Source of the DNA: Elusimicrobiota bacterium
GTDB lineage: Bacteria; Elusimicrobiota; Elusimicrobia; UBA1565
Length of the DNA stretch: 64,000 nucleotides
NCBI GenBank assembly: GCA_016196755.1
Contig: JACPXC010000001.1
Span: forward strand, 1 to 64,000
Reading direction: 5' to 3'
The translations under genes and the position numbers were made by a program. Shown here piece after piece: positions 29,356 through 54,380 of this stretch. Positions within the stretch are counted from its first letter, which is position 1. Each line of letters starts with the position of its first letter. Under the pieces are notes generated by a model. That model saw only the letters and a program-made list of their open reading frames with translations, had not been told where the DNA came from and searched no databases.

Positions 29356-29372
29356 CGAGGGGGTGGTCGTGA
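29352..29372 (+). promoter_or_regulatory. Six-codon leader ORF
   Basis: ATG at 29352 to TGA at 29370-29372, encoding MTRGWS. It sits 6 nt after the TACAAT box, where other genes here have their leaderless start. Its stop overlaps the GTG at 29369 (GTGA), so ribosomes could re-initiate on the membrane-protein gene. Translation is inferred. Confidence 0.35.
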
Positions 29373-30826
29373 AGCTCCTTGCGGGCCACGGACGAAAGTC
29401 CGCGGCCGTCATCGTGACCCTGTCCCTGCTGTCCCAGCAGGGATTTTTCGTTTCCGAAGCCCTAGCCCAGCGCGTCACCGCGGTGAACCCCGGCGGCGCT
29501 CCCATCGCCCCGGTGACGACGGCGGGCGTGGCGACGGTGCCCGTGACCCTTGCGGCGCCTTTGGGGCTCTCCGCCGCCGCTCCTGGCCGGTCCGCCAGCC
29601 TGCCGGCGCCCGTCGCGCCGACGCCGACGGCCAAGCCCGCGGCTTCCGCCGCCGCGGCGCTGGCCGCTCCGGCCACCGTCACGCCCGCAGTCATCGCTCC
29701 CATCGCCGTCGCGGCGCAGGCCGCCGAGGTCCTTCCCGCACCCGCCGCCGCACCCGCCGCGGAAGTCCAACGGCTCGCCGCCGCTGCCGCGGGTCCCCTT
29801 GCCGCGGCGCCCGAAGCCGCGAAGGCGCGGCCGGACGGGACGCAGGCCGGGCTCCGACGCCTGGGCGGCGTCCTGGCTAAGGGAGCCCCCGCCGCGCCTC
29901 TGGCCGCGTTCTTCGACCAGGCCCGGCGTTCCCAGGTCAACGCCGTCACGGAGCCGTCGGGGAGCGTCCCGACCACTGAGGCTGTGGGAGAGACCGGCCG
30001 CGACTCCCGGGGGCGGCTCGAGCCCGCGGGCACGGACGCCGAGGCGCCCGACCGAGCGATATCGCGAGGAAGTGCCGCCTCCGAGGTCGTGGGAGCGGCC
30101 GCCCAGCCCGACGTGCCGGAGCCCAGCGTCGGCAATCGCTTCATCGAGTTCAACGTCCAATACCTCAAGGACATCAAGAAGCTCTTTCTCGAGTCAGCCA
30201 CGACTCCGAACAGCCAGGACTACATCTACCTCCTGACCAAGACCTTCGGCCTCAACCTCGCCATCCGCGTCGCCTTCGCCTACAAGGGCGTCAGCGACGG
30301 CGCGCTGCCGCTGGAGCGCGCCATCATCTCCACCGCCTGGTATCAGGTCCAGGACGCGATCTTCACGGTCTTCGGCCAGACTTATATGAAGTTCCTCGGC
30401 AAGATGACCGGGATGCTCCGGATCGGCTCGGCCAAGATCGGTGACCTCGCCTTCGTCTACGTCCAGCTCGTCGCCTTCGAGTTCCTCAACCGCCTCGTGC
30501 TCGGGCCCATCGGCGAGAACCCGCTGGTGTACTCCTGGGGGGGCATCGGGCTCTTGCTCCTCAACAACCTGCAGGGGTTGATTTCGGGCGGGCTCCTCGT
30601 CCCGGTCATCAACAAGCTCTACGCCAAGGGCTTCATAAGCGAGAAAACCAGCAACGCCCTCTATCAGCTGGCCAGCCTCACGATGCACCTGGGGCTCCTG
30701 GCTACCTTCGGCTACCAGAGCGTGTTCACGTGGCTGACCACGGCGCTCATGATCCTTTCCTGGTCGGCCTACATCGGGCTGTCGTTCTTCGCCGACGACA
30801 AGTCCGTCCCGGAGAAGAAGCTGTGA
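29369..30826 (+). CDS. Membrane protein P1 with signal peptide and Ala/Pro-rich N-terminus
   Basis: 485-aa protein of no family I know. Residues 1-34 are a signal peptide, about 35-225 are low-complexity Ala/Pro/Val, then a C-terminal membrane domain of about 210 residues with several hydrophobic helices. That domain is paralogous to the product at 35243-36295, sharing WYQVQDAIFTVFGQTYMKFLG and EFLNRLVLGPIGENPLVY. Around 190-205 the segment AAFFDQARRSQVNAVTEP resembles one in the GH77-GH133 protein. An intragenic 51-bp repeat lies at residues about 227-243. GTG 29369 is preferred over GTG 29363 because of a GAGGGGG site 5 nt before. First gene of the two-amylase operon. Confidence 0.78.
   Translation: MKLLAGHGRKSAAVIVTLSLLSQQGFFVSEALAQRVTAVNPGGAPIAPVTTAGVATVPVTLAAPLGLSAAAPGRSASLPAPVAPTPTAKPAASAAAALAAPATVTPAVIAPIAVAAQAAEVLPAPAAAPAAEVQRLAAAAAGPLAAAPEAAKARPDGTQAGLRRLGGVLAKGAPAAPLAAFFDQARRSQVNAVTEPSGSVPTTEAVGETGRDSRGRLEPAGTDAEAPDRAISRGSAASEVVGAAAQPDVPEPSVGNRFIEFNVQYLKDIKKLFLESATTPNSQDYIYLLTKTFGLNLAIRVAFAYKGVSDGALPLERAIISTAWYQVQDAIFTVFGQTYMKFLGKMTGMLRIGSAKIGDLAFVYVQLVAFEFLNRLVLGPIGENPLVYSWGGIGLLLLNNLQGLISGGLLVPVINKLYAKGFISEKTSNALYQLASLTMHLGLLATFGYQSVFTWLTTALMILSWSAYIGLSFFADDKSVPEKKL
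30049..30099 (-). repeat. Intragenic 51-bp repeat, copy 1
   Basis: Core 30049-30086 (38 bp) equals the cores of the copies at 53922 and 62338 with one mismatch. The adjoining 13 bp (30087-30099) are a degenerate arm of an imperfect palindrome. In this gene it is read on the strand opposite to the other two copies and stays open (DRAISRGSAASEV). Confidence 0.85.
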
Positions 30827-32868
30827 AGCGCTTTCTGGCGCTCCTGCTCTCGGCGGCGCTGCTCCCGAACCCGTCTTGGGCCGCTAAGATCGTCACGCCC
30901 GCCGTCCCGGTATCCATCGGCGCGCCGATGAGCGGCGTCGCGGTCGCCGGCGCCGCGGCTGCCCCGACGCTGGCGCCCACGCTTGCCGCTCCCTCGATCA
31001 CGGCCCCGTCGCTTGCTCTTCCGACTCCTTCCATCGTCCCGCGCGTCTCGGGTCCGGCTGCCGCGTCTGTCGCGGTCGCCGCCGCGTTGGCCGCTCCTGC
31101 TCCCTCCGCCAACGCTGTCGCGGAGCAGGCTCCGAAAGCCGGGGCCATCCCCGCCCTCGGCGCGGGCGCCCAGGTAAACGACGTCCAGGCGGAGACAGTC
31201 CCCACCCGGGAAGGCGCGGTCGGCCAGGCCGCCGCTCGCTCGCAGGCGACCCTGCGCCGCCTCGAGGCTCCCGAGGGCACACCCAAGACCGTCGCCGAGC
31301 TCAGCCTCGAGCCCGAGGCCGGCAAAGCCTACCAGGCTTCCCCGATCGACTGGCGCGATGAGATCCTCTATTCGGTCATGGCCGACCGCTTCGCGCGCTC
31401 CAAGCGCGGCTTCGGGCTGGGCGACCCCAAGAGCGGCACCTCGCGCCACGGCGGCGACATCCAGGGCATCATCGAGAAGCTCGACTACATCAAGGCCTCG
31501 GGCGTGACGGCCATCATCCTCTCGCCGGTGACGATGGGCATCCCCGAGGCCTACCACGGCTACGCCCCGACCCAGCTCCTGGCCGTCGACCCGCACCTGG
31601 GCACCATGGCGGACTATAAGAAGATGGTGGCCGAGGCTCACAAGCGCGGGATAAAAGTCATCATGGACCTGGTCATGAACCACACCGGGCCCATCTTCGA
31701 GTACAAGGAGGGCTCCAAATTCCAGAGCCAGGGACGCAAGGAGATCGGAGAGCGCACGGAGCTGCTGGGCCCCGAGGACCTCATCGACGAGGATTTCACG
31801 CGCCGCGGCGTCATCGACGACTGGAACAACCACGACCAGGCTACCCACGGCGACTTCCCGCCGAACTACCGCCATCTCGACACCGAACGGCCGGAGACCC
31901 AGGAGAAGCTGATCAAGCTCGCCAACTGGTGGATCAAGGAGACCGACGTCGACGGGGTGCGCCTCGACGCCATCCGTCACATGGACTCGGGCTTCGTCAT
32001 CCGGTTCGCGCGCGAGGTGAAGCACTACGCGGCGAGCCTGGGCAAGAAGAACTTCCTGATGCTCCCCGAGAATTCCACCGGGGTCGACGGGGACCTCGTG
32101 CGCGACATGGCGCTGGGGATGGACTCGGGCTACAACTATCCCGAGTTCCGCCGCCAGCAGCGGGCCCTTCACGGCCGGGCCCCGACGCGCGAGCTGGAGA
32201 ACAGCTTCCAGACCGCGCTCGGGGCGCTGGCCGGTACCCTGAGCCGGATCGTCCGCTTCATCGACCTTCACGACACGTATCGCTTCCTGCGCCAGGGCGA
32301 GCCGGAGAGCCTCCTGCGCGTCGCCTTCGCCTTCCTGCTCTTCTCGACCGGCATCCCGCTGGTCTACTACGGCACGGAGCAGGCCTTCCGGCAGTACACC
32401 GACAGCATGGACGCCGAGGGGCCGGCGGCGCCGGCCGACCCGCAGAACCGCGAGGATATGTTCGCGGAAGGCGAGTTCAAGTCGGAGAGCTCCAAGGGCG
32501 ACAAGTTCGACGTGGAGTCGGCGTCCTTCAAGGCCTTGGGGCGCCTGGCCCAGGTGCGCAAGGACCTGGCGCCGCTCCGGCGCGGCAAGCAGTATATCCG
32601 GTGGTCGGACACCTGGGGCGCCGGCATCTACGCGTTCAGCCGCATCCATGCCGGAGAAGAGGTGCTGGTCGTCATGAACACCTCGGGGGAGGCGCGCTCC
32701 GCCGAGATGTTCGTCGACTCCAGGATCACGCCCGCGGACTCCCAGCTCGGCGACGCCCTCGACGCCGGTTACGGCGCCAAGACCTTCGCCGGCGCCGAAG
32801 GCGGCTCCAAGGTGAGGGTGAGCGTGCCCGCCCACGGCGTCCGCGTCCTCGTGCGCCGCGCCCCGTGA
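30823..32868 (+). CDS. Secreted GH13 alpha-amylase-family enzyme
   Basis: 681-aa glycoside hydrolase family 13 enzyme acting on alpha-glucans. Signal peptide 1-20, low-complexity Ala/Pro/Val linker to about 170, then the catalytic barrel from DWRDEILYSVMADRF. Catalytic residues are nucleophile D382 (GVRLDAIRH), acid/base E416 (LMLPENST) and D484 (FIDLHDT). Region I is DLVMNHTG. The C-terminal beta-domain is included. The GTG start overlaps the P1 stop (GTGA). Secretion suggests it cuts glucans in the periplasm or outside; hydrolase versus transferase activity cannot be told from sequence. Confidence 0.92.
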   Translation: MKRFLALLLSAALLPNPSWAAKIVTPAVPVSIGAPMSGVAVAGAAAAPTLAPTLAAPSITAPSLALPTPSIVPRVSGPAAASVAVAAALAAPAPSANAVAEQAPKAGAIPALGAGAQVNDVQAETVPTREGAVGQAAARSQATLRRLEAPEGTPKTVAELSLEPEAGKAYQASPIDWRDEILYSVMADRFARSKRGFGLGDPKSGTSRHGGDIQGIIEKLDYIKASGVTAIILSPVTMGIPEAYHGYAPTQLLAVDPHLGTMADYKKMVAEAHKRGIKVIMDLVMNHTGPIFEYKEGSKFQSQGRKEIGERTELLGPEDLIDEDFTRRGVIDDWNNHDQATHGDFPPNYRHLDTERPETQEKLIKLANWWIKETDVDGVRLDAIRHMDSGFVIRFAREVKHYAASLGKKNFLMLPENSTGVDGDLVRDMALGMDSGYNYPEFRRQQRALHGRAPTRELENSFQTALGALAGTLSRIVRFIDLHDTYRFLRQGEPESLLRVAFAFLLFSTGIPLVYYGTEQAFRQYTDSMDAEGPAAPADPQNREDMFAEGEFKSESSKGDKFDVESASFKALGRLAQVRKDLAPLRRGKQYIRWSDTWGAGIYAFSRIHAGEEVLVVMNTSGEARSAEMFVDSRITPADSQLGDALDAGYGAKTFAGAEGGSKVRVSVPAHGVRVLVRRAP

Positions 32869-35243
32869 AGCTCGACGACTGGCGCGGCAAGGTCATCTAC
32901 CTGGTCCTCATCGACCGTTTCGCCAACGGGGACCGCTCCAACGACGACCAGGGCAAGGGGGAGTACGACCCCGAGGACGACGACTGCTTCCACGGCGGCG
33001 ACCTGAAGGGTCTGACCCAGCGGCTGCCGTTCATCAAGAAGATGGGCTACGACGCGGTCTGGGTCACGCCGCCGGTGCACAACCAGTGGGTCAATCCCTA
33101 CATCAAGACCCGGGGCTTTCACGGCTACTGGGCCTACGACTTCACGGCCATCGACCCGCACTTCGGCACGCTGGCCGACTACAAGGACTTCGTGGCCGAG
33201 GCGCACAAGCTCGGGCTCAAGGTGGTCCAAGACATCGTCGTCAACCACACCGGCAACTTCTTCACGGTCGACGCGGCGGGCTTCGACCCGGCGCGGCCCG
33301 AGCTCAACTGGAAGCTGGCCGACGGGGCCTTGATGGCTCCCAAGGACCCGGTGTTCCGGTTGAACGATCCCAACGACCCCGAGCACAAGCGCGCGGCGGT
33401 CTACAACTTCACGCCGAACATCGCCGACTTCAAGAGCCGCGAGCAGACCCTGACCTGGTCGATGGGCGATCTAGACGACATCAACCTCAAGAGCCCCCTG
33501 GCCGTCCAGCGCTTCAAGGACATCTACAAGTTCTGGATCGACGAGGCCGGAGTCGACGCGTTCCGGGTCGACACGGTCTACTACACGCCCGAGGAGTTCT
33601 ACGAGCGCTTCCTGCACGACCCCGACGGCATCAAGCCTCACGCCGCCAAGAAGGGCAAGCACGACTTCTTCGTCTTCGGCGAGGTCTGGTCCTACGACAC
33701 CGCGGCGATCAACTCCTACATCAAAGGCCCGGGCCGGCCGCGGCTCGACGCGGCCGTCGACCTGCCGCTCAACGAGGCGCTGACCCAGGTCTTCTACCGC
33801 AAGGCGCCCACCGAGCGCCTGCGCGCGGCGCTCAAGGCCGCGCGCGCCAACCGCTCGCTGTGGGTGAACTTCCTCGACAACCACGACATCGAGCGCATGT
33901 GCGCGCGCGCCGGCCCCGCCACGGTCAAGCAGTCGCTGGCCGCCCTTTTCACCTTGCCCGGCCTGCCCTGCGTCTACTACGGCACCGAGGCCGGCCTGAC
34001 CCGGGCGCGCGAGGACATGTTCACCGACGCGCGCTTCGATCTGGAAGCCCCGCTGGCTCGCTTCCTGCGCGAGCTCATCGCGTTCCGCAAGGCCACGCCG
34101 GCGCTGACCCGCGGGAAGCTCAAGCTGGAGCGCACGAGCCACGGGCCGGGCCTCTTGGCCTGGTCGAGCGAGCACAAGGGCGAGCGCGTCCTCTCCATCT
34201 TCAACACCGCGCCGAACCAAGTGGCCTGCGACCTGGGAGGGGCCGGCCTCGAGGTCCTGCTCTCCTCCTTCGGGCGCAAGTCCGTGCCCGGGGTGTTCCT
34301 GCTCGAGGCCGACGAGTACCTGATCCTCAAGGGCGCCGCGGCGGCGGCGGTCGACCGCGCCCCGGAGCTGCGCGCGCCCCCCAAGCGCGCGCTCAAGGGG
34401 ACGGCGGTCCTGGCCTACGCGCTGGCCGACCCGGCCTGCGAGCTCTCGCTGCTCGACAACGGCGACTACGGGCGGCGCGTGCCGCTGGCCGACCCGGCGG
34501 CGGGCTCCGTCGAGCTCGACACCACGCGGCTCGGCAACGGCAGGCACGAGCTGCGCCTCTTGTGCCGCACCAAGGGCGGTCTCTCGCTGTCGGCGCCGGT
34601 GCCCGTGACCGTGCGCAACCCCTACAAGCTCCTGGCCCGCGCCAAGGTGCCGCAGGGCCAGAAAGGCGGGCTCGGGGGAGGTGTGCGCCCGCCGGCCGAC
34701 CCCAGCTACCGCGGCCAGCTCTCGATGGAGCGCGTCGACGCCTTGACCAGCGGGCGCGACCTACGCCTGCGCTTTAAGATGACCGACGTCACCGACGAAT
34801 GGAACCCGCCGCACGGCTTCGATCACGTCTACTTCAGCGTGTTCTTCGACTTCCCGGGCGTGCCGGGCGGCCGGGCTCTGCCGAAGCTCGGCTACGCGCG
34901 CGAGGACTTCCGCTTCAACGCGGGCTTCCTGCTCTACGGCTGGGACATGCGCTCCTTCGGCGCGGCCGACTCGGGTCCGGACGCCTACGGCAAGCCCCTG
35001 GTCGGCGACGTGACAGCCTCGGCCGACAAGGAGCGCAACCTCGTGGAGTTCACGTTCTCGAGCGCTTTCTTCGGCTCGGTGGCCGACTTCTCGGGCGTGA
35101 GGGTCTTCATCTCCACGTGGGACGGCTACCTCGGCGAGCTTCGCGCGGTGGCCGACAAGCGCGAGGAATGGAATTTCTATACTATTGACGGAGCCGGGTC
35201 GAAGGTCCCCAAGGTCTACGATCACGTGCTCTTGGAGCTTTGA
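32865..35243 (+). CDS. GH13 enzyme with C-terminal glucodextranase-like binding domain
   Basis: 792-aa GH13 enzyme that starts directly with the barrel (VIYLVLIDRFANGD) and shows no signal peptide. Catalytic residues: D236 (DAFRVDTV), E273 (FFVFGEVW), D341 (FLDNHD). After the catalytic part come a beta-domain, a cleft region and, at about 620-792, a segment like the C-terminal domain of glucodextranases (FDHVYFSVFFDFPGV, ISTWDGYLGELR). GTG 32865 overlaps the previous stop by 4 nt; the long upstream open frame is spurious. Probably cytoplasmic, or exported in an unusual way, and likely acting after the first amylase. Confidence 0.9.
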   Translation: MKLDDWRGKVIYLVLIDRFANGDRSNDDQGKGEYDPEDDDCFHGGDLKGLTQRLPFIKKMGYDAVWVTPPVHNQWVNPYIKTRGFHGYWAYDFTAIDPHFGTLADYKDFVAEAHKLGLKVVQDIVVNHTGNFFTVDAAGFDPARPELNWKLADGALMAPKDPVFRLNDPNDPEHKRAAVYNFTPNIADFKSREQTLTWSMGDLDDINLKSPLAVQRFKDIYKFWIDEAGVDAFRVDTVYYTPEEFYERFLHDPDGIKPHAAKKGKHDFFVFGEVWSYDTAAINSYIKGPGRPRLDAAVDLPLNEALTQVFYRKAPTERLRAALKAARANRSLWVNFLDNHDIERMCARAGPATVKQSLAALFTLPGLPCVYYGTEAGLTRAREDMFTDARFDLEAPLARFLRELIAFRKATPALTRGKLKLERTSHGPGLLAWSSEHKGERVLSIFNTAPNQVACDLGGAGLEVLLSSFGRKSVPGVFLLEADEYLILKGAAAAAVDRAPELRAPPKRALKGTAVLAYALADPACELSLLDNGDYGRRVPLADPAAGSVELDTTRLGNGRHELRLLCRTKGGLSLSAPVPVTVRNPYKLLARAKVPQGQKGGLGGGVRPPADPSYRGQLSMERVDALTSGRDLRLRFKMTDVTDEWNPPHGFDHVYFSVFFDFPGVPGGRALPKLGYAREDFRFNAGFLLYGWDMRSFGAADSGPDAYGKPLVGDVTASADKERNLVEFTFSSAFFGSVADFSGVRVFISTWDGYLGELRAVADKREEWNFYTIDGAGSKVPKVYDHVLLEL

Positions 35244-36295
35244 TGACGCCAGCCGCCGACAGCCTCGTGGTCCTCGCCGTCGACAAGGGCGGGACGCGGC
35301 TCTATCTCGCCGGGAAAGGCCCCGACGGCCCCTTCAAGCCCTGGGTGCCCGGGGAGGCCCTGCCTGTCTCCGGGAGCGTCGGCAAAGGCTTCGTCTACGT
35401 CTGGCCGACGCGGACCTATTCGGAAGGGATGGGCTCGGACAAGCCCGCGGAGCTGGCGCCGGAGGACCGCGCGATGATACGCGCCGCCCGACGCGCGCAC
35501 GGCGGCGAGCTGGCCTGCTTCAAGGCGGGGGAAGACGGCGGCGAGGCCTCCGCCGTGGCCGCGCCCAAGGGCGCCTTGACCTTCGATTCCAGCTACGTCA
35601 AGAACATGAAGGCCATCTTCGTCTCCTGCATGACCAGGCCCAACCGTCAGGACTACATGTGGCTGGCGACCAAGACTTTCTCGTTCAACCTGGCGATCCG
35701 GCTCTTCTTCGTGAGCAAGGCGGTCGGCGCGGGCGAGCTGCCGATGTTCCGCGCCGTCATCTCGACTTCGTGGTACCAGATCCAGGACGCGGTCTTCACG
35801 GTGTTCGGGCAGACCTATATGAAGTTCCTCGGCAACATGACCGGGATGATCCGGATCTTCAGCTCTCCGGTCGGCGACATGGTCTTCGTCTACGTCCAGC
35901 TCTGCGGCTTCGAGTTCCTCAACCGCCTGGTCCTGGGGCCGCTGGGCGAGAACCCGCTGGTCTATACGCCGGCCGGCATCGGCCTCATCTTCCTCAACAT
36001 CATGCAGGGCATGCTCTCGGGCGGGCCGCTGATCCCCGCCGTCAACCAGATGCGCCGGGTGGGTGCAATAAGCCACTCGACTATGATGCACCTCTACCAG
36101 GTGACCAGCCTCACGATGCAGTTCGGTCTCTTCGCGGCCTTCGGCTACCAGCGCTTCTACGCCCTGCTGACCGGCTCGGTGCTGGTGCTGTCCTGGACCA
36201 GCTACTTCGTCTTCACGACGTTCTATAAGGATCCCGAGTTCACGCGGGCCGACGGCGAGACAGCCGCGCGGCTGTCCGGGCTGGCGGCGGCGTAA
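35243..36295 (+). CDS. Membrane protein P2, paralogue of P1
   Basis: 350-aa protein with no recognised family. It has a soluble N-terminal portion of about 95 residues (VDKGGTRLYLAGKGPDGP near 15-32) instead of a signal peptide, then a membrane domain closely matching P1 (29369-30826): DYMWLATKTFSFNLAIR, WYQIQDAVFTVFGQTYMKFLG, EFLNRLVLGPLGENPLVY. By eye more than half of about 210 positions agree, without large gaps. Start ATG 35243 overlaps the GH13 stop (TGATG). Flanking the amylases with paralogous membrane proteins suggests a membrane complex for glucan handling; the role is unknown. Confidence 0.78.
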   Translation: MTPAADSLVVLAVDKGGTRLYLAGKGPDGPFKPWVPGEALPVSGSVGKGFVYVWPTRTYSEGMGSDKPAELAPEDRAMIRAARRAHGGELACFKAGEDGGEASAVAAPKGALTFDSSYVKNMKAIFVSCMTRPNRQDYMWLATKTFSFNLAIRLFFVSKAVGAGELPMFRAVISTSWYQIQDAVFTVFGQTYMKFLGNMTGMIRIFSSPVGDMVFVYVQLCGFEFLNRLVLGPLGENPLVYTPAGIGLIFLNIMQGMLSGGPLIPAVNQMRRVGAISHSTMMHLYQVTSLTMQFGLFAAFGYQRFYALLTGSVLVLSWTSYFVFTTFYKDPEFTRADGETAARLSGLAAA

Positions 36296-36300
36296 GCCGC

Positions 36301-36819
36301 GTGCCGACCCTATTCACCCACGCCGCCTCGGCGGCGGCCTTCAAGCGCCTGAGCTTCGTCGAGCCGATGCCGAGCGGCTTCCTGACCCTCTCCATCCTCT
36401 GCGCGATGCTGCCCGACGCCGACGTGGCGGCGTTCTTGATGGGGATTCCCTACGAGCACATGCTGGGCCATCGTGGACTGAGCCATTCACTGACGTTCGC
36501 CGCGGCGGTCGGAGGCATCTGCGCGGCCTGGGTGGCGCGCGGGACGGAGAGACGCGTCGCGCCGCTTTGGGGGTACTTCTTCCTCGTCATCGCCTCCCAT
36601 GGGATTTTCGACGCGATGACCGACGGCGGGCTGGGCGTGGCGTTCTTCGCGCCGTTCAGCGACGAGCGCTACTTCCTGCCGTGGACGCCGCTCAAGGTGT
36701 CGCCGATCGGCGGGGGGTTCTTCACGGCCCGGGGGATTCCGGTCGCGGTCAGCGAGCTGGTTTGGGTCTGGCTGCCGTTGGGCGTCCTGAGTTTGGTGAT
36801 CAGTCGAGCACGCGGCTAA
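36301..36819 (+). CDS. YdjM-like membrane-bound metal-dependent hydrolase
   Basis: 172-aa membrane protein of the YdjM/DUF457 family. Metal-binding motifs are LPDADV (about 38-43), HRGLSHS (about 58-64) and SHGIFDAMTDGGLG (about 98-111), between hydrophobic helices. The GTG start is 5 nt after the P2 stop, so it is the last gene of the amylase operon. The family's reaction is not settled; it is thought to be a phosphohydrolase-like enzyme. Confidence 0.85.
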   Translation: MPTLFTHAASAAAFKRLSFVEPMPSGFLTLSILCAMLPDADVAAFLMGIPYEHMLGHRGLSHSLTFAAAVGGICAAWVARGTERRVAPLWGYFFLVIASHGIFDAMTDGGLGVAFFAPFSDERYFLPWTPLKVSPIGGGFFTARGIPVAVSELVWVWLPLGVLSLVISRARG

Positions 36820-38231: not shown

Positions 38232-38276
38232 AGGCCCAGGCTTCCCTATAGGGGCACCGTTACAATGATGGCGTGA
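38232..38276 (+). promoter_or_regulatory. Conserved 45-bp promoter element, copy 2
   Basis: Matches 29311-29355 at 36 of 45 positions. CCCTATAGGG is a 10-bp palindrome at 38245-38254, TACAAT lies at 38261-38266, and the GTG start follows after 6 nt. No -35 consensus. The pairing with copy 1 suggests joint control of the two alpha-glucan loci. Confidence 0.65.
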
Positions 38277-41200
38277 GAGCGCCCTCCCAGCGCCTGCGGT
38301 CCGTCCTAGCGGCCTTCCTCGCGTTCTCGCTCCCCGTCCTGCCGGCCGCGGCCCAGGTCGTCCGATCCCAGGCCCCCGTCGTCGTCGCGCCCGTCGCGGG
38401 CGGCCAAGCGGCCGCGGGATCCGTCGTTCCGGTCTCCCTGACCGCCCCGTCGCTCACCGCGGGGCCCACGCTGGCCGCTCCGTCCTTGGCGGCCCCCGCC
38501 GCTTCGCCGCGCGTCAGCGCCGCGGTTCCCGTCGCCGCCGCCGTTCCTGCGGCCGTCCCCGCGCTGCCGGCCGCGGCCGCGCCATCGGCCCGGGTCATCC
38601 CTCAAGCCGCCGCCGCCCAGACCGCCGGCCGCGAGGCGGCGGCTCCCGCCGCTCCCCTCGCCTCCCTGCGCTCGGTCGAGAAGGCGGCCGGCAAGACCCC
38701 CGCGCCCGCGCTCGGCCGCTTCTTCGACGGCGGGAGCGCCCGCGGGAGCGTCAACGGCGTCACGCCCGCCCTGGCCGGCCCGTCGCACGTCTCCTCGCTC
38801 AGCCGCCTCCAGCGCGCGGCCTGGTGGAAGGACCCCGCGGCCTCGCACGCCGCGGTCAGCGTGCCGCTCTACGCCCTGCGCCGCTCCCAGAACGACCCCG
38901 GCATCGGCAAGTACACCGACCTCGGTCCCTACTACCGCGACGTCCTGGCCAAGCAGGGCGTCGGCGTCATGCACCTCCTGCCGCATTTCGCCATCCTTGG
39001 TGAAAGCCCCTACGCCCCGGTCAGCCTCGACGCGCTCAACGAGGACAACGTCGACTGGGCCGCGGTGCCCGAAGTCCAGGCCGACCCGGCGCTGGCGGCG
39101 CGCCTCGAAGCCCCGGACCAGGCCCGGCGCCAGACCGTCGATTACGCGGCCCTGCGCGGACGCGAGGGCGGCGTGGCCGCGGCGGCCTGGGCCGCCTTCA
39201 AGCGCGAGCAGCTCGGCCGCGGCACGGCCCGCGGCCGCCAGTTCCAAGCCTTCCTGACCGAGAACGACGCCTGGCTGGGCGAGTACGCGGAATTCATGGC
39301 GCTGGCGGCCGCGCTCGGAAAGCCGGCGCTGGAGTGGACCGAGGCCGACCTCGCGCGGGCTCGCCGCACGCCGGGGTTCGCGGAGCGCGTCGAGCGCCAC
39401 GCCTTCACCCAATGGCATGCGGCCACCCAGCTCAAGGAAGCCCTCGGCACGGTGCACGCGGCCGGCGGCAAGGTGATCTTCGACATCCCGATGTTCAGGG
39501 GCAAGAACTCGGTCGACGCCTGGAAGCGCCCCCAGTACTTCACCGACCTCAAGACCCGCAACCCCGGCATCAAGAACGAGTGGATCAACGAGGACTGGGG
39601 TGACCTGGCGCTCTGGAACTGGACGCGTCTTAGAGCCGAGGGCTACAAGACGGCGCTCGACCCCTTCCGGCGCTGGCTGGACCGCGGCTTCGACGGCGGC
39701 CGGGTCGACGCCCTTCACTTCGCCTACCGGTTCGGCAGCGGCCAGCTGGCCAGCGGCGACGAGCCCGGCGACGACTACGTGCAGGCCCTGGCAGGCGTGT
39801 TCGAGGAACGCGGCGCTTTCCCGCTGGCCGAGGCCTTCGAAGGCAAGGCCGAGGCGGCTGAGCGCTTCGGCTTCGTGACGGTCTACAACGGCTGGAAGAA
39901 GGTCAGCTCCCACGACGACCCGCGCAAGGAAGGCTTCATGGGCCGCTTCATGGCGGAGAGCTCGAAAGAAGGCTCGGGCAAGAGCGCGCGCTTCGCGGGC
40001 TACACGCTGGGAGACGAGTGGAACGACCCGTTCCCGGTCAAGGAGTCGGTGGCCGGCGGCTCTAGCTGGCGCTACCGCATCCCGCTGCCCTCCGACCCCG
40101 ACTACGAGAACCGCGCGCGGGCCGACTCGCGCGGCCAGATGGGGGCTTGGCTGGCGGCCCGTGCCGGCGACGTCTGGCGCGCCGCGGAAGGCCTCTGGTC
40201 CGCGCTCGCCGTCGCCGCCGACACCTTCGTCAAGCATGTCGACGGCACGGTCAAGATCTGGGCGGCCAGCCTCGACTGGTTCCTCGAGGAGTGGGGCCGC
40301 GACACCTTCATCTCCCTGCCCGGCCTGCTCCTGACCACCGACCGGGCCGCCGAGGCCAAGGAGAACATCCGCCAGTTCGCGCGCCAGGAGCGCGAGGGGC
40401 TCATCCCCAACCGCATCGCCGCGGTCTCCGAGTACAACACCGTCGACGGGTCGATGTGGTTCATCCAGGCGGTCAAGCGCTTGGCTGACTCCGGCGACGC
40501 GGCCTTCGCGGCCGAGATGCTGCCGGTCATGCGCCGCATCATGGCCCGCTATGCGGAGGGGACCGGCTACCAGCGCTACGGGCGCTTTAACCGCATCGCG
40601 ATGGATTCCACCGACGGTCTCATCGTCAGCCCCGCCCAGGCCACCTGGATGGACGCCGACCCGGAAGGCCGCGACCGCCCCGTGACGCCGCGCAACGGCA
40701 AGGCCGTCGAGATCAACGCCCTGTGGTACGCGAACCTGCGCTTCATGGCGCGCCTCGAGCGGGCCGACGGCGCCGCGTCGGCGGCTGATGCCTTGGACGC
40801 GCGGGCCGAGCAGGTCAAGAAGTCCTTCAACAAGCGCTTCTGGTTCGTAAACGAGGACAACAAGCGCTTCTGGGGCGGGACCGGGGGAGCCCTGCGCGAC
40901 GCGGTCGACGGCGACCCGCACGGCGAGGCGATCCGGCCCAACATGCTCTTCGCGGTCAGCCACGGCGAGGACCTCCTGCCGCCCGACCGTCAGCGCGCCG
41001 TCGTGCAGGCGGCCGCCAAGGACCTGCTGACGCCCTACGGCCTGCGCACGCTGTCTTTCCGCGACAGCCGCTATCAGGGCCGCTACGACACCTCCAAGCC
41101 CCCGTCGGAGAAGGACCAGGCATATCACCAAGGCACGGTCTGGCCGTGGCTGATGGGCTCCTTCGTCGACGCGCTCGTGAAGGTCCGCAAGGGCCAAGGT

Positions 41201-41479
41201 TGGAGCGACGAACGGGTCAAGGCCGAGGTACGCGGCATCATGACTCCGCTCGTCGAGTTCCTCGCCGCCTCGCCCGAAGGCTCCCTGCCCGAGGTGTTCG
41301 ACGGCGGCGGGTTCGACGAGGCTCTGCGCGGCTTCAACCTCGAGGACCCCGCGGGGCTGGGCCCGGTAGTCTCACGCCTGGCGCGCGTCCAGAACCGGGG
41401 CGGCACCCGCTCCCAGGCCTGGAGCGTGGGCGAGGTCCTGCGCGTGCTCGAGGCGCACGGCCTCCTGCGCCGGCCCTGA
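38273..41479 (+). CDS. Bifunctional GH77-like / GH133 glycogen-debranching fusion
   Basis: 1068-aa secreted protein. Residues 1-25 are a signal peptide; about 26-170 are Ala/Pro/Val-rich and end with RFFDGGSARGSVNGVTP. About 180-600 is a 4-alpha-glucanotransferase (GH77)-like barrel with D479 (GRVDALHF), E520 (PLAEAFEG) and D548 (SSHDDPRKE) as candidate catalytic residues. About 640-1068 is an amylo-alpha-1,6-glucosidase (GH133) domain with WGRDTFISLPGLLL, YNTVDGSMWF, TWMDA (791-795) and YHQGTVWPW. This combines transferase and 1,6-glucosidase as in eukaryotic debranching enzyme, but with a GH77 rather than GH13 half. GTG start 6 nt after the -10 box. Confidence 0.88.
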   Translation: MRAPSQRLRSVLAAFLAFSLPVLPAAAQVVRSQAPVVVAPVAGGQAAAGSVVPVSLTAPSLTAGPTLAAPSLAAPAASPRVSAAVPVAAAVPAAVPALPAAAAPSARVIPQAAAAQTAGREAAAPAAPLASLRSVEKAAGKTPAPALGRFFDGGSARGSVNGVTPALAGPSHVSSLSRLQRAAWWKDPAASHAAVSVPLYALRRSQNDPGIGKYTDLGPYYRDVLAKQGVGVMHLLPHFAILGESPYAPVSLDALNEDNVDWAAVPEVQADPALAARLEAPDQARRQTVDYAALRGREGGVAAAAWAAFKREQLGRGTARGRQFQAFLTENDAWLGEYAEFMALAAALGKPALEWTEADLARARRTPGFAERVERHAFTQWHAATQLKEALGTVHAAGGKVIFDIPMFRGKNSVDAWKRPQYFTDLKTRNPGIKNEWINEDWGDLALWNWTRLRAEGYKTALDPFRRWLDRGFDGGRVDALHFAYRFGSGQLASGDEPGDDYVQALAGVFEERGAFPLAEAFEGKAEAAERFGFVTVYNGWKKVSSHDDPRKEGFMGRFMAESSKEGSGKSARFAGYTLGDEWNDPFPVKESVAGGSSWRYRIPLPSDPDYENRARADSRGQMGAWLAARAGDVWRAAEGLWSALAVAADTFVKHVDGTVKIWAASLDWFLEEWGRDTFISLPGLLLTTDRAAEAKENIRQFARQEREGLIPNRIAAVSEYNTVDGSMWFIQAVKRLADSGDAAFAAEMLPVMRRIMARYAEGTGYQRYGRFNRIAMDSTDGLIVSPAQATWMDADPEGRDRPVTPRNGKAVEINALWYANLRFMARLERADGAASAADALDARAEQVKKSFNKRFWFVNEDNKRFWGGTGGALRDAVDGDPHGEAIRPNMLFAVSHGEDLLPPDRQRAVVQAAAKDLLTPYGLRTLSFRDSRYQGRYDTSKPPSEKDQAYHQGTVWPWLMGSFVDALVKVRKGQGWSDERVKAEVRGIMTPLVEFLAASPEGSLPEVFDGGGFDEALRGFNLEDPAGLGPVVSRLARVQNRGGTRSQAWSVGEVLRVLEAHGLLRRP

Positions 41480-46294: not shown

Positions 46295-47548
46295 ATGAGG
46301 TGGCGGCGTGCTGTCCTGGCAGTATTCACGTTCTTGTTCTCCGCTTGCTCCAAGCCCGCCGTCGACGCCTCCGGCCGCACCGTCGTGCGCTTCCTCGCCG
46401 GTCCCGACGTGGGAGGGGGCCAGAAGGCCATCATCGCGCGCTTCGAGGCCCTCAATCCCGGATTGAAGGTGGAGATGGTGGAGGGGCCGGCGGCCTCCAA
46501 CACGCGCGAGGACATGTACGCGGCGGCGTTCATAGGAAAGGAGAGCACCTACGACGTCCTCTACATGGACGTGGTCTGGCTGCCCAAGTTCGCCGCCCAG
46601 GGCTGGCTGAGGCCGCTCGACGACCGCTTCCCTCCGCAACGCCAGGCCGAGTTCCTCCCCGGCGACATCCTCGGGTCCAAGTTCGCGGGAAAGACCTACC
46701 GCCTTCCGGTACAGTCCGACGGCGGCCTGCTGTATTACCGCAAGGACCTCCTCGCCGCCGCCGATCTCGCCCCGCCGCGCACCTGGGCCGAGCTGGCCGC
46801 GGCCGCGAAGGCCGTGCAGAAGCCCCCCGAGACCTGGGGGCTGGTGTTCCAAGGCAAGCAGTACGAGGGGTTGGTCTGCGTCTATCTCGAGCTCCTGTGG
46901 GGCAACGGCGGCGAGCTCATCGACGAGGCGGGGACGGTGCTCGTCGACTCGCCGGCCGCCGTCGAGGCGCTGACCTGGCTGGTCGACGCCGTGCGCAAGG
47001 ACGGCTTCGCGCCCGAGGGCGTGCTGACCTTCCAAGAGGAGGAAGCGCGCCACATGTTCCAGGAGGGGAAGGCCGTCTTCATGCGCAACTGGCCCTATGC
47101 CTGGAACCTGCTGCAGGCGGAGGGTTCGCCGGTAAAGGGGAAGGTCGGCATCCTGCCGATGGTGCACGGGCCCGGGAAGGCCTCGGCGGCGACGCTGGGC
47201 GGTTGGGGCTGGGGCATCTCGGCGTTCTCGGAGCACCCCGAGGCGGCCTGGAAGTTCATCGAGTTCGCGGCCAGCCTGGAAGGACAGAAGACCGCTTACG
47301 TCAAAGGCGGCATCATCCCCACGCGCAAAGCCCTCTTCGAGGACCCCGAGATTGCCGCGAAGAGCCCGCATTATCGGGAGCTCTTGGGCGTGCTGGCCGG
47401 GGCCCGCCCGCGGCCGATGCATCCCGCTTGGGCGCGGATGTCCGATATCCTGCAGGTGCGCCTGAGCGGGGCGCTCTCGGGCCAGGCCTCTCCCGAAGAC
47501 GCCTTGCGCGCCGCGGCCGAGGACATGCGCGCGGCGCTGGCCCGTTGA
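46295..47548 (+). CDS. Sugar ABC transporter substrate-binding lipoprotein
   Basis: 417-aa family 1 extracellular solute-binding protein (MalE/trehalose-maltose type) with a lipobox (LFSAC, Cys 18). Typical features: RFLAGPDVGGGQKAIIARFE at the start of lobe 1, the YRLPVQSDGGLLYYRKD hinge region near 130 and GWGWGISAFSEHPEAAWKFIEF near 305. It would deliver an oligosaccharide to the permeases encoded next. With amylases in the window, maltodextrin is the likeliest cargo; that is inference. Heads a four-gene overlapping operon. Confidence 0.92.
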   Translation: MRWRRAVLAVFTFLFSACSKPAVDASGRTVVRFLAGPDVGGGQKAIIARFEALNPGLKVEMVEGPAASNTREDMYAAAFIGKESTYDVLYMDVVWLPKFAAQGWLRPLDDRFPPQRQAEFLPGDILGSKFAGKTYRLPVQSDGGLLYYRKDLLAAADLAPPRTWAELAAAAKAVQKPPETWGLVFQGKQYEGLVCVYLELLWGNGGELIDEAGTVLVDSPAAVEALTWLVDAVRKDGFAPEGVLTFQEEEARHMFQEGKAVFMRNWPYAWNLLQAEGSPVKGKVGILPMVHGPGKASAATLGGWGWGISAFSEHPEAAWKFIEFAASLEGQKTAYVKGGIIPTRKALFEDPEIAAKSPHYRELLGVLAGARPRPMHPAWARMSDILQVRLSGALSGQASPEDALRAAAEDMRAALAR

Positions 47549-48396
47549 TGGACAGCCGCGCGGGGTTCACGCGCCGGGAGGCGGCGATCAATTGGGCCTT
47601 CGCCGTCCCGGCCCTCGCCCTCATGGCCGCGGTCAACCTCCTGCCGGTGTGGACCGCCTTGTCCCACGCGGCGGGCTTCCGCTACCTCGCCCACGACGCC
47701 CGGTTGGCCGCTTCGCTGGGCAATTCGCTGACCTTCACGGTGTCCACGGTGGCGTTCGAGACCGTCCTCGGGCTGGCCTTCGCCCTCCTCCTCAGCCGGC
47801 CGTTTCGCGGACGGGGCCTGGCGCGCGCCGCGGTGCTCGTGCCTTGGGCCCTGCCCACGGCCATCATGGCGATGGCTTGGCAGTGGATCTTCAACGCCGA
47901 GTACGGCGTCCTCGGCGACCTCCTTTATAAGGCCGGCCTGGTGTCCTCGCCGCGCATCGCCTGGCTGGCCTCCCCGCGCGGGGCGATGGCGGCCTGCGTG
48001 CTGGCCGACGTGTGGAAGACCACGCCGTTTATGACCCTCCTGTTCATGGGCGGCCTGGCCAACATCCCCGATGACCTCTACGAGGCCGCGGGCATCGACG
48101 GGGCGGGACCCGTCCGGCGCTTCTTCATGATCACCCTGCCGCTGCTTAAGTCCACGCTGGCCTTGGCCGTGACCTTCCGCGCCATCCAATCCTTCAGCAT
48201 CTTCGACCTGGTCTGGGTCCTGACCGGCGGCGGCCCGGGCGGGGCCACGCAGATGACGGCGCTCTACGTCTACGACAACGTGTTCCGCTACCTCGACCTC
48301 CCGTATGCATGTACGCTGACTTTGCTCATGGCGGCCTGCCTGGCCGTCCTGGCCGGAACCGTGCTCGGGCTCTCGCGGTCCAAGGAGGCGCGGTGA
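47548..48396 (+). CDS. Sugar ABC transporter permease (MalF-like)
   Basis: 282-aa inner-membrane permease with six predicted helices and the EAA loop EAAGIDGAGPVRRFFMITLP near residue 180, which contacts the ATPase. The TM domain begins after a short cytoplasmic N-terminus. ATG 47548 overlaps the stop of the binding-protein gene (TGATG); the longer open frame upstream is spurious. Confidence 0.93.
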   Translation: MDSRAGFTRREAAINWAFAVPALALMAAVNLLPVWTALSHAAGFRYLAHDARLAASLGNSLTFTVSTVAFETVLGLAFALLLSRPFRGRGLARAAVLVPWALPTAIMAMAWQWIFNAEYGVLGDLLYKAGLVSSPRIAWLASPRGAMAACVLADVWKTTPFMTLLFMGGLANIPDDLYEAAGIDGAGPVRRFFMITLPLLKSTLALAVTFRAIQSFSIFDLVWVLTGGGPGGATQMTALYVYDNVFRYLDLPYACTLTLLMAACLAVLAGTVLGLSRSKEAR

Positions 48397-49223
48397 GGCG
48401 TGTAGGCGACATCCTGTTCGGGCTGGCGGTGGCGGCCGTCGTATTATGGAGCCTGGGGCCCTTTCTGTGGCAGATCATCACCTCGCTCAAGCCTCCCGCC
48501 GAGGTCGTGACTGCGCCGCCGACCTACTGGCCGTCGGCCCCGACCTTGGCCAGCTACTTCAAGATCTTCGCCACGCGTCCGTTCGCGGCCTACATACGCA
48601 ACAGCGCGCTCATCGCCTTGGCCTCTACCGCGCTCTGCACGGCCCTGGGGACGCCCGCCGCCTACGCCCTGGCGCGCCTGCCGCTGCCGGGCGGGTCCTG
48701 GGCCGTGCGCGCGGTGCTTCTCGTCTCGGTCTTCCCGCCCACCATACTCATCGTGCCGCTCTACAAGCTGGTCGCGCGGCTGGGCCTGCTAAACGACCCG
48801 TTGGGGCTCATCCTGCCCTATACCGCGCTCAACCTCCCGTTCACGATCTGGGTGCTGATGACCTTCTTTAAGCAGATCCCCAAGGAGCTCGAGGAGGCCG
48901 CGGCGGTGGACGGCCTGTCGCGCTGGCAGACGCTCTGGAAGATCGTCTTCCCGCTCTCGGCGCCGGCCGTGGCCACGGCGGCCATCCTGGTCTTCATCTT
49001 CTCCTGGAACGAGTTCCTGTTGGCGATGACGTTCATGTCGCGCGACAGCGCGCGCACGGTGCCGGTGGGGATAGCGATGCTCTCGGGCGCCTCGAGCTAC
49101 GAGGTGCCCTGGGACCAGATCTCCGCGGCCGTGGTGCTGACCACCCTGCCGGTGGTGGCGCTCGTGCTCGCGTTCCAGCGCCGGATAGTCGAAGGGCTGA
49201 CGGCCGGGGCCGTCAAAGGGTGA
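48393..49223 (+). CDS. Sugar ABC transporter permease (MalG-like)
   Basis: 276-aa second permease with the EAA motif EEAAAVDGLSRWQTLWKIV near 165 and the ITSLKPPAEV segment after the first helix that is typical of MalG-type subunits. GTG 48393 overlaps the MalF-like stop (GTGA). It forms the heterodimeric channel with the preceding subunit. Confidence 0.93.
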   Translation: MRRVGDILFGLAVAAVVLWSLGPFLWQIITSLKPPAEVVTAPPTYWPSAPTLASYFKIFATRPFAAYIRNSALIALASTALCTALGTPAAYALARLPLPGGSWAVRAVLLVSVFPPTILIVPLYKLVARLGLLNDPLGLILPYTALNLPFTIWVLMTFFKQIPKELEEAAAVDGLSRWQTLWKIVFPLSAPAVATAAILVFIFSWNEFLLAMTFMSRDSARTVPVGIAMLSGASSYEVPWDQISAAVVLTTLPVVALVLAFQRRIVEGLTAGAVKG

Positions 49224-49227
49224 GCGC

Positions 49228-50222
<995 letters not shown>

Positions 50223-50226
<4 letters not shown>

Positions 50227-51533: not shown

Positions 51534-54380
51534 CTATTTAGCGGGCGCGGAGGCGCGCTTGAGCGCGTTGGCGAGGTCGGAGCGCAGGCGCAGCTCGGGG
51601 ATCGGATAGGACATCCCTTCGGCCAGCACCAGGCGGGCGCCGGCCAGGTCGCCCGCCTCCAGCGCCATCCAGCCCAGGCCGAGGCAGGCCAGCGGATGGC
51701 CGGGCATGAGCCGGCGGGCGGCCTCGAGCTCGGGTTTGCCTTCCTTGGGCCTGCCCGCGCCGTACAGGAAGATGCCCAGCCGGGCACGGGCCTCGGCGGA
51801 GTCCGGCGCCAGCGAGGCGCCCTTGCGCAGGGCGACGGCGGCCTCGGCGTCCCGCCCCACGACGTCGAGCAGGCGGCCGTAGGCGGTCCAAGCCCGGGCC
51901 GAGCGCGGGTCGAGCTGGAGGGCGCGGGCCACGGTGTCGGACGCCTGGGACGGTTCCTCGGAGTCCAGCACGGTCTCGGCGGCCTTGGAGAACAGGCGCG
52001 ATAGATGGGCGTTGCGCACGACGATGTTCGTGACCCCCGGCGGCAGATAGGAGGACTTGGAGGCGTTGAGCGAGGTCAGGATGGATTTCGAGTTGAAGCG
52101 GTGGAAGCTGCGCGGGGCGTCGGTCTCGAGGGTGGGGCGGTCGTCCTCGTGGAGCGGGCCGTCGCCGGCCCAGCGGCCCAGGTCCTCATCGCCGAGCACG
52201 AAGGTGCCGACCAGCAGGGTGAAGGGGTCGTCGAGCGAGCGCGCCAAGCGCGACATGTCGTCCTTGAAGGCCGGGTCTGAGCGGAACGCGGACTCAAAGC
52301 GCGCGTAGTCCGGGGCCAGGGGGGATTCCGAGCCGAGCAGGAAGTAGTCCGCCTCCCCATTATAAAGGAGGACGGAGTGCGGGAACTCGGACCGGAACGT
52401 CCGGACGACGAGCTTGAAGTCCTCTTCGCGCATGTGGTAGCTGTGGAACCACTGGCAGAAGACTCCGCCGGTCTCGAGCCGCCGCCGGGCCAGGGCGAAG
52501 GCCTCGCGCGTGAAGAGGTAGGCCACCCCGGCGATCCAGGGGTTCGAGGGCTCCGAGACGATCAGGTCGTAGCGCGGTCCGGGCGAGGCGAGGAACTGTC
52601 GCGCGTCGGCCAGGATGAGGCGCAGGCGAGGATCGTCGAGGACGGCGCGGTTGGAGCGCGCGAAGAGGGCGGCGGCGCGGGCCACGGCGGGCTCGATCTC
52701 GAGGACCTCGAGCGAGGCTAGGCTGCGCTCGCCGGCCAGCGCGGAGGCGGTCAGGCCGGCGCCGAGCCCGACCACCAGCGCGCGCCGAGGGGCCGGCGGG
52801 CCCCAGAGCCGCGGCAGATAGCCCAGCAGGAGCTGGGTCGTCATGTCCCCGCCCTCGGAGGCGTCGGTCTTTCCGTTGATGCGCAGGAAGCGCTCGCCGT
52901 GCGGGGACTCGAGCACCGTGGTGGTGGCGTTGGGGCCGGTCTCGTGGAAGATGACGCGGTCGCGCGAGAGGTCGCCGACGAACTCCGCATAGCCTTTGAC
53001 GTAGGTGTAGTACGGAGCGTAGAGGAACATCCCGCTGGCCTCGACGCGCGGGTTGCCGCGCGTCGAGCCGGCGGCCAGGAGGATCGGCACGAGCGCCGCG
53101 GCGCCGGCCGCGCGCCGGCCGGCGCGCGCGAGCAGGAAGGCGGCCGCGGCCGCGTAGAGCACGGCGCAGGCGGCCAGCGTCCCGCGCCAGCCCAAGAGCG
53201 GCAGGAGGGCCAGGCCCGCGGCCGCGGAGCCCAGGATGGCGCCGGCGGTGTTGGCCGAGTACAGCGCGCCGACCGCTCGGCCGAGCCGCCCGTTCTCGGG
53301 CGCGGCCATGGCCGCCAGCCAGGGCAGGATAGCTCCCATCAGGAAGGCCGGCGGCCCGACGACCAAGGCCGTGAAGCCGAAGGCCGAAAGCGCGGGAAAG
53401 GCCCCGCCGGTGGCGCGCACGAGGAGGAAGGGCAGGTAGTCGTATGCGGCCAAGCCGGCCGTCACGGCCAGGCCCAGGACGCTGAGGAGCGCGGCCAGGC
53501 CCGCGCCGGAGTCCCGGCGGCGGCGGGAGAAGGTCAGGCTGCCCAGCGCCAGGCCGGCCAGCATGAGCGAGAGCACGGCGGTGAACGCGTAGGTCGTGGA
53601 GCCGGCCAGCATCGCGATCGCGCGCGTCCAGGCCGTCTCGCAGGCCATAGCGGCGGCCCCGGTGACGGCCAGGAGGACCAGTGTCTCGGTCGGCACGGCG
53701 GGGCCGGGGCCGGGAGCAGGGGAGGAGGGTACCTTGTGGGACAGACGCCGCGCCGCGGCCCAGGCCAGCCCCGCGGCGACGACGTCGAGCGCCGCGCCGG
53801 TCAGGAGCGCGCGGCGCAGGCCGAAGGCGGGCAGGAGCCAGAGGCCGCAGGCCAGGCAGCCGAGCACGGCGCCGAGGGTGTTGACGCCGTAGAGAGCGGC
53901 AAGCGGCTCGTCCGGCGCACGCGACCGAGCGTTATCGCGAGGAAGTGCCGCCTCCGAGGTCTTGGTGGCGGCCATCAGAAGGGGCAGGCTGGCGCCGAGC
54001 AGAGCCGCGGGCAGGAGGAGGACGGCGGCCGAGAGCGCGAAGGCGGCCGCGGCTTGCGGGGCGGGGGGCAGGCTGACGATGCCGGCGGCCAGGGCCGCGC
54101 GCGAGGCGGCCTCGAGGGCCGGCCGGCTGGCCAGGGCGGCCGCGGCGGCAGCCAGCTCGATGAGCGCGTAGAGGCGCAGGGCTGCGGCGGGGGAGCGCCG
54201 GTCGGCCGCGCGGCCGCCGAGCCAACTGCCGGCGGCCAGCCCGCCCATGAAGGCCGACAGGACGGCCGCGACGGCGGGGGCGGTGTGGCCCAGGCTCAGC
54301 GTGACCAGGCGCACCCAGAGCACCTCGTAGACGAGGGCCGCGGCTCCGGCCAGGAACGTCGAGGCTAGGATGAGGCGCAA
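51534..54380 (-). CDS. Membrane protein with spermidine-synthase-like and TPR domains
   Basis: 948-aa fusion. About 1-480 is an MFS-like membrane region with many helices, starting GAAALVYEVLWVRLV as in other membrane/spermidine-synthase fusions. About 490-760 is a Rossmann aminopropyltransferase-like domain with VVGLGAGL near 537 and SEPSNPWIAG. About 800-948 contains TPR-like repeats. Homologues are common but their reaction is not proven; polyamine synthesis is uncertain because the substrate loop differs. An intragenic 51-bp repeat encodes SEAALPRDNARS at about 142-153, in a loop between helices. TTG start at 54380, 7 nt after the namZ stop. Confidence 0.85.
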   Translation of the reverse strand: MRLILASTFLAGAAALVYEVLWVRLVTLSLGHTAPAVAAVLSAFMGGLAAGSWLGGRAADRRSPAAALRLYALIELAAAAAALASRPALEAASRAALAAGIVSLPPAPQAAAAFALSAAVLLLPAALLGASLPLLMAATKTSEAALPRDNARSRAPDEPLAALYGVNTLGAVLGCLACGLWLLPAFGLRRALLTGAALDVVAAGLAWAAARRLSHKVPSSPAPGPGPAVPTETLVLLAVTGAAAMACETAWTRAIAMLAGSTTYAFTAVLSLMLAGLALGSLTFSRRRRDSGAGLAALLSVLGLAVTAGLAAYDYLPFLLVRATGGAFPALSAFGFTALVVGPPAFLMGAILPWLAAMAAPENGRLGRAVGALYSANTAGAILGSAAAGLALLPLLGWRGTLAACAVLYAAAAAFLLARAGRRAAGAAALVPILLAAGSTRGNPRVEASGMFLYAPYYTYVKGYAEFVGDLSRDRVIFHETGPNATTTVLESPHGERFLRINGKTDASEGGDMTTQLLLGYLPRLWGPPAPRRALVVGLGAGLTASALAGERSLASLEVLEIEPAVARAAALFARSNRAVLDDPRLRLILADARQFLASPGPRYDLIVSEPSNPWIAGVAYLFTREAFALARRRLETGGVFCQWFHSYHMREEDFKLVVRTFRSEFPHSVLLYNGEADYFLLGSESPLAPDYARFESAFRSDPAFKDDMSRLARSLDDPFTLLVGTFVLGDEDLGRWAGDGPLHEDDRPTLETDAPRSFHRFNSKSILTSLNASKSSYLPPGVTNIVVRNAHLSRLFSKAAETVLDSEEPSQASDTVARALQLDPRSARAWTAYGRLLDVVGRDAEAAVALRKGASLAPDSAEARARLGIFLYGAGRPKEGKPELEAARRLMPGHPLACLGLGWMALEAGDLAGARLVLAEGMSYPIPELRLRSDLANALKRASAPAK
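53922..53972 (-). repeat. Intragenic 51-bp repeat, copy 2
   Basis: Core 53922-53959 is identical to the SMC copy over 38 bp; 53960-53972 is the degenerate left arm (GCCGCCACCAAGA on the minus strand). Read in frame as SEAALPRDNARS in the spermidine-synthase-like gene. Confidence 0.9.

Follow-up and report, generated by a model that had tools for sequence, protein, structure and literature searches.

Operon organisation

What work is done by two membrane proteins that resemble one another, match no recognised family and stand on either side of a pair of GH13 enzymes? The question is raised by a four-gene locus in the window, the whole stretch of 64,000 nucleotides analysed here (positions 1 to 64,000 of contig JACPXC010000001.1, from an Elusimicrobiota bacterium). 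The genes P1, G1, G2 and P2 are co-directional and joined by overlaps, GTGA at both the P1/G1 and the G1/G2 junction and TGATG at G2/P2. The ORF list and the junction sequence agree with an earlier note on this DNA, which had described a GH13 pair bracketed by P1 and P2 in one operon with stop/start overlaps. The features discussed below are as follows.

29363..30826, + strand: P1; signal-like leader, Ala/Pro linker and A-type membrane core of six predicted helices; start GTG at 29363 or 29369
29369..29470, + strand: signal-peptide-like N-terminus of P1, VKLLAGHGRKSAAVIVTLSLLSQQGFFVSEALA followed by Q, read by eye; resembles the B-protein leader of G002 (see below)
29840..29965, + strand: 'FFD(G/Q)' motif at the end of the P1 leader; E=8e-8 and E=1e-14, with P1 itself in the query alignments
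30044..30103, + strand: copy of a dispersed repeat of ~57 bp, in the P1 frame, reading APDRAISRGSAASEVVGAA
30140..30802, + strand: P1 membrane core, A family, about 221 aa, from sequence comparison
30823..32868, + strand: G1; leader-bearing GH13 enzyme (PF00128, 151.5 bits)
32865..35243, + strand: G2; leaderless GH13 enzyme with a C-terminal Glucodextran_C domain (PF00128, 175.6 bits; PF09985, 40.4 bits)
35243..36295, + strand: P2; leaderless, with a soluble alpha/beta domain (aa 1-112) and an A-type core of six predicted helices (aa 113-331)
38273..41479, + strand: associated GH77-like + GDE_C (amylo-1,6-glucosidase) enzyme, leader-bearing; several relatives likewise have it close to the operon
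46334..50226, + strand: associated sugar-type ABC importer, from profile matches: SBP_bac_1, two BPD_transp_1 permeases and ABC_tran

A YdjM-like gene (36301-36819) starts 5 bp past P2; it was rejected as a member of the module because it does not adjoin P2 in relatives. GDE-type ORFs of great length were also seen near the operon, one of 2639 aa (L041:10912-18831) and one of at least 1730 aa (L040:7308-12500).

The GH13 enzymes

G1 and G2 are members of the GH13 family (PF00128: alpha-amylase, neopullulanase, CGTase), both exceeding the profile cut-off of 22 bits at the scores listed above. By eye, the Asp/Glu/Asp catalytic triad can be placed in the motifs GVRLDAI, LPENS and DLHD of G1 and AFRVDTV, FGEVW and DNHD of G2. 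The closest solved relative of G1 is 4e2o (E=4e-51), and that of G2 is the alpha-amylase 43wj (E=6.6e-95). The enzymes had been described as one secreted and one not, and this holds at the level of sequence type: G1 opens with a signal-like sequence followed by a long Ala/Pro/Val linker, and G2 begins at its catalytic domain. The same division runs through the relatives, where every G1 with a readable start carries a leader, as do B and P1, and none of 20 G2 proteins and no P2 has one. Neither a leader of the G1 kind nor obligate membrane partners are features of the GH13 family.

A membrane core outside described families

Residues 261-479 of P1 and 113-331 of P2 align without gaps over 219 residues with 57% identity and 74% positives (BLASTP, E=6e-92), including the identical runs FTVFGQTYMKFLG and EFLNRLVLGP. 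The shared region with long identical runs pointed out in the earlier note is therefore real, and so is the difference between the N-termini: by eye P1 has a signal-like leader and a long Ala/Pro linker, and the soluble N-terminus of P2, conserved as PTRTYSEGMGG...SPEDR, is unlike it.

The failure to recognise a family for this domain also stood up to profile searches, which returned no transporter or housekeeping match. P1, P2 and 23 relatives matched no Pfam family, scattered chance matches aside; BPD_transp_1 was unmatched by 25 A and 11 B members, and neither MFS, SWEET/PQ-loop nor other Pfam transporter profiles matched P1, P2 or B. The sole NCBIfam match of P1 was a weak one to the CPBP intramembrane protease profile NF052640 (12.3 bits against a cut-off of 220, E=0.11), which P2 did not match and which we treated as chance. 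A profile matched no PDB sequence. For P2, an AlphaFold2 model (mean pLDDT 82.8, pTM 0.75) matched no PDB fold at E<=0.001. Since Pfam, NCBIfam and the PDB, the last by sequence and by fold, were all negative, assignment to a known family was rejected; the A-type cores are a family undescribed in these searches.

The P2 model places six predicted helices in the core. Across 25 A sequences the mean numbers of K/R per loop are 4.1, 0.00, 3.4, 0.00, 2.6, 0.00 and 1.3, the zeros falling on the odd loops, and the predicted orientation from these charges is N-in/C-in. A pair of opposite topology, at which the P1 leader hinted, was rejected since the pattern is the same in P1 and P2. About 70 columns of the A alignment are invariant, all within the membrane core, and many are polar residues inside helices; invariant positions of polar type include W177, Y178, Q179, Q181, D182, N227, R228, N252 and Q255.

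Conservation of the locus

An A core is encoded by 25 of the 57 genomes around the window, and by 17 of the 36 that are near-complete. In a phylum sample of 295 genomes, 19 have a P2-type core, all belonging to the window's order and none elsewhere. When 84,980 species were scanned for a pair of conserved peptides, 22 loci were found; their titles are mostly Elusimicrobia or Elusimicrobiota, with a few plain 'bacterium' and one contig labelled Bdellovibrionales. On that contig (L080, MEQJ01000030.1, 1697-10856) a GH13 gene, a putative outer-membrane porin, G2 and P2 stand in a row, and this occurrence outside Elusimicrobiota may reflect transfer or mis-binning. L080 also has a GlgE-like gene beside G2-P2; it and the porin were read by eye. 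Plasmids and viral contigs contained no relatives, and a mobile or viral origin was rejected on that ground.

P2 lies directly downstream of G2 in 24 of 24 loci, the window and L080 included, with the G2 frame broken in L047. The linkage of the membrane genes to GH13 genes is accordingly conserved across genomes. G1 mostly precedes G2, and the order membrane protein-G1-G2-P2 recurs through the window's order, as the four-gene arrangement singled out in the earlier note would have it, but its first gene is mostly B, of another membrane family. Thus the idea of a membrane module of no known family tied to GH13 enzymes survives, and that of a general pair of paralogues does not. An orphan membrane family stands beside the same amylase in every copy found, in a phylum of which few members have been cultured. 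In the part of the literature covered on Elusimicrobia glycogen and starch metabolism, intracytoplasmic membranes and periplasmic glycogen synthase, no paper on this system appeared.

The B family and a chimeric P1

The B protein that fills the P1 slot in most relatives combines a leader with a small soluble domain and roughly six helices. Eleven members had no Pfam match, a model (mean pLDDT only 67) matched no PDB fold at E<=0.001, and search matches were confined to the window's order. Diverged versions in G046 and G028 accompany GH13 genes, together with an ABC importer in G028, and in G003 B and G1 form a single frame of 1095 aa. Just after P2 in G003 (L060:10233-14015) we also noted a 1260-aa protein with a leader, a GH13-like domain and, at its C-terminus, a multi-helix region that is PQ-loop/SWEET-like by eye, a further case of an enzyme joined to a membrane domain.

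Over its first 52 residues the window's P1 shares 54% identity (28/52) with the leader of B in G002, a member of the same genus; the score is 121, where shuffled sequences reached 40 at most. The membrane part of P1, by contrast, is only 23% identical (52/225) to that B protein, as against 57% to P2. With a B-like leader joined to a P2-like membrane part, P1 is by sequence a chimera of a B-type leader and an A-type core. In the tree, the P1-slot A cores of the window, G001 and G038 group in a single clade with full support. G050 combines a B-like soluble domain, matched by the B profile, with an A core that sits apart from that clade and has a long branch. A cores thus seem to have replaced B in its slot on two or more occasions, a sign that A and B may do the same job. 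A distant relationship between the two is suggestive only: hhalign gave a colinear match with E=0.015-0.025 and a probability of 2-3%, against 0.12 for a reversed control. Homology of their small soluble domains found no support, the order of predicted elements being all that is similar.

A leader shared with unrelated proteins

The leader is built of a signal peptide, judged by eye throughout, 80-150 residues rich in A/P/V/S/T and then an LxxFFDG-like motif. In this genome at least 20 proteins with unrelated functions bear it, among them the GDE enzyme and GH13s, PPK2 (L237), MscS (L224), M50 (L217) and the MFS proteins L216, L219 and L125:10416-11999. L214 is a leader-bearing MFS protein with a match to the TLC ATP/ADP transporter, although MFS_1 scores higher, and further bearers read by eye are PepSY-like (L212), kinase-like (L213) and HAD-like (L242, L245). 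The set includes nucleotide-dependent proteins and transporters expected to start in the cytoplasm. The presence on MFS, MscS, M50 and PPK2 proteins led us to reject a leader specific to glucan proteins. Nor is it a mis-called ORF start: the leaders remain alignable between genomes and change most at third codon positions, an excess which argues that they are translated.

A second glycogen synthase (GT5; L127:4474-6261) also has the signal peptide and Ala/Pro linker, with catalytic motifs that look intact by eye. Twelve counterparts in relatives have a leader or leader end, making 13 genomes in total (loci L190, L191, L193, L195, L207, L206, L201, L199, L200 and L043 among them), usually with the FDG motif. 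This protein is kept across the order alongside an ordinary leaderless GlgA; leaderless GlgA, GlgB, GlgP and GlgX are, by eye, also encoded in the window's genome. If exported, the second synthase would be without its nucleotide-sugar donor, and where a glycogen synthase with a signal peptide resides in these bacteria is a testable question.

The leader predicts N-out, whereas A and B cores and MFS proteins are expected to be N-in. The leader suggests that the pair bearing it acts outside the cytoplasm, but this conflict calls that into question and makes the side of the membrane on which G1 acts uncertain.

Proposed function and alternatives

The split in leaders, the B-G1 fusion and the adjacency of G2 and P2 support, as the simplest reading, an operon of two membrane-protein/amylase pairs, P1 or B with G1 (leader-bearing) and P2 with G2 (leaderless). 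The role in alpha-glucan degradation or transport proposed in the earlier note can fairly be drawn from the gene context, and the probable task of the six-helix proteins is to hold glucose chains at the cell membrane or to move them. Our preferred but tentative reading, to which we give a little less than an even chance, is that they serve the amylases as dedicated partners in the membrane and, most probably, conduct maltooligosaccharides. It draws on the unbroken G2-P2 adjacency, seen even in the locus labelled Bdellovibrionales, the recurrent gene order, the fusion in G003, the leader split between G1 and G2, the replacement of B by A cores at two tree positions and the diverged B-like gene in a cluster of GH13 genes and an ABC importer. 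Each GH13 enzyme would be served by its own six-helix partner: G1 would cut alpha-glucan at one face of the membrane, the cores of P1/B and P2, probably acting jointly, would hand maltooligosaccharides to G2, and G2 would complete their breakdown in the cytoplasm. The nearby debranching enzyme and ABC importer would belong to the same pathway. If the A core does conduct oligosaccharides, it would be a new transporter fold.

Several observations weaken conduction, namely the lack of a fold match to any transporter in the PDB, the neighbouring ABC importer, beside which a second importer would be superfluous, the clash between N-out leader and N-in core, and an A-B homology that is suggestive only. 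The main rival, possible but less probable, makes the six-helix proteins passive anchors or scaffolds that keep the GH13 enzymes at the membrane and leaves uptake to the ABC importer; that importer's closeness to the operon, the fused B-G1 and the invariable G2-P2 adjacency all suit it. An anchor, however, does not require a strongly conserved polar interior, and G1 proteins are mostly unfused; six helices, invariant polar helix residues and the charge pattern fit a transporter or membrane enzyme better. The invariant W, Y, Q, D, N and R cluster in the helices would equally suit membrane-embedded enzymes or flippases, for instance acting on a glucan primer or lipid-linked sugar and coupled to GH13 trimming, and in one genome a leader-bearing second glycogen synthase adjoins G2-P2. 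We think this unlikely, as no catalytic family is matched and the operon lacks a conserved glycosyltransferase partner.

The leader invites more unusual explanations. It might mark an envelope or an internal compartment of an unusual kind that has glucan and nucleotide metabolism of its own, P1/B-G1 being the lumenal half of the system; its presence on the second GlgA in 13 genomes, PPK2, the TLC/MFS-type and other MFS transporters, MscS and M50 would then make sense, as would its disagreement with the N-in topology of cores and MFS proteins. Such a compartment has not been reported, the signal peptides were judged by eye and leader cleavage may leave topology unaffected, and we regard the idea as improbable. 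More doubtful again is a form in which the leader that P1/B and G1 bear is a targeting signal peculiar to the lineage and directs proteins to a compartment or membrane domain set apart for a second glucan metabolism, with glycogen synthase, GH13s, PPK2, the TLC/MFS-type transporter and other membrane transporters as cargo and P1/B-G1 and P2-G2 as two faces of one machine. Least probable of all, P2 could be a sensor or regulator of glucan supply and not a transporter; its small conserved cytoplasmic alpha/beta domain would suit such a role, but no signalling domain was matched and P1 has no recognisable version of that domain.

Dedicated amylase partners, our preferred reading, can be set beside known systems for glucan uptake. 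Maltodextrin ABC importers of the MalEFGK type, of which a complete set lies at 46334-50226, have the presumed substrate and gene neighbourhood in common with P1, P2 and B, but the latter are without a BPD_transp_1 profile, paired ATPase or binding protein. The Sus system of Bacteroidota combines outer and inner amylases with dedicated envelope proteins, and in this the two are alike; P1 and P2 differ in being helical membrane proteins, in which no SusC/SusD-type profile was found.

A dispersed repeat in the P1 linker

The repeat of ~57 bp within P1 has 44 copies in this genome and is present in 9 of 19 relatives searched (19 copies in G002, 30 in G007 and none in G001). Besides the copy in P1, the window has others at 62324-62386 and 53922-53973, and further copies lie at L130:3268-3328 and in L004-L008. 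Genic copies that we inspected are in frame, occur in both orientations and encode ADRALSRGSAASEALGAA or AAPTASEAALPRDSARSAA; the P1 linker, an SMC-like gene and the leaderless GlgA each host one, that in GlgA being an 18-aa insertion missing from relatives of the same genus. In its behaviour the repeat is similar to the Rickettsia palindromic elements.
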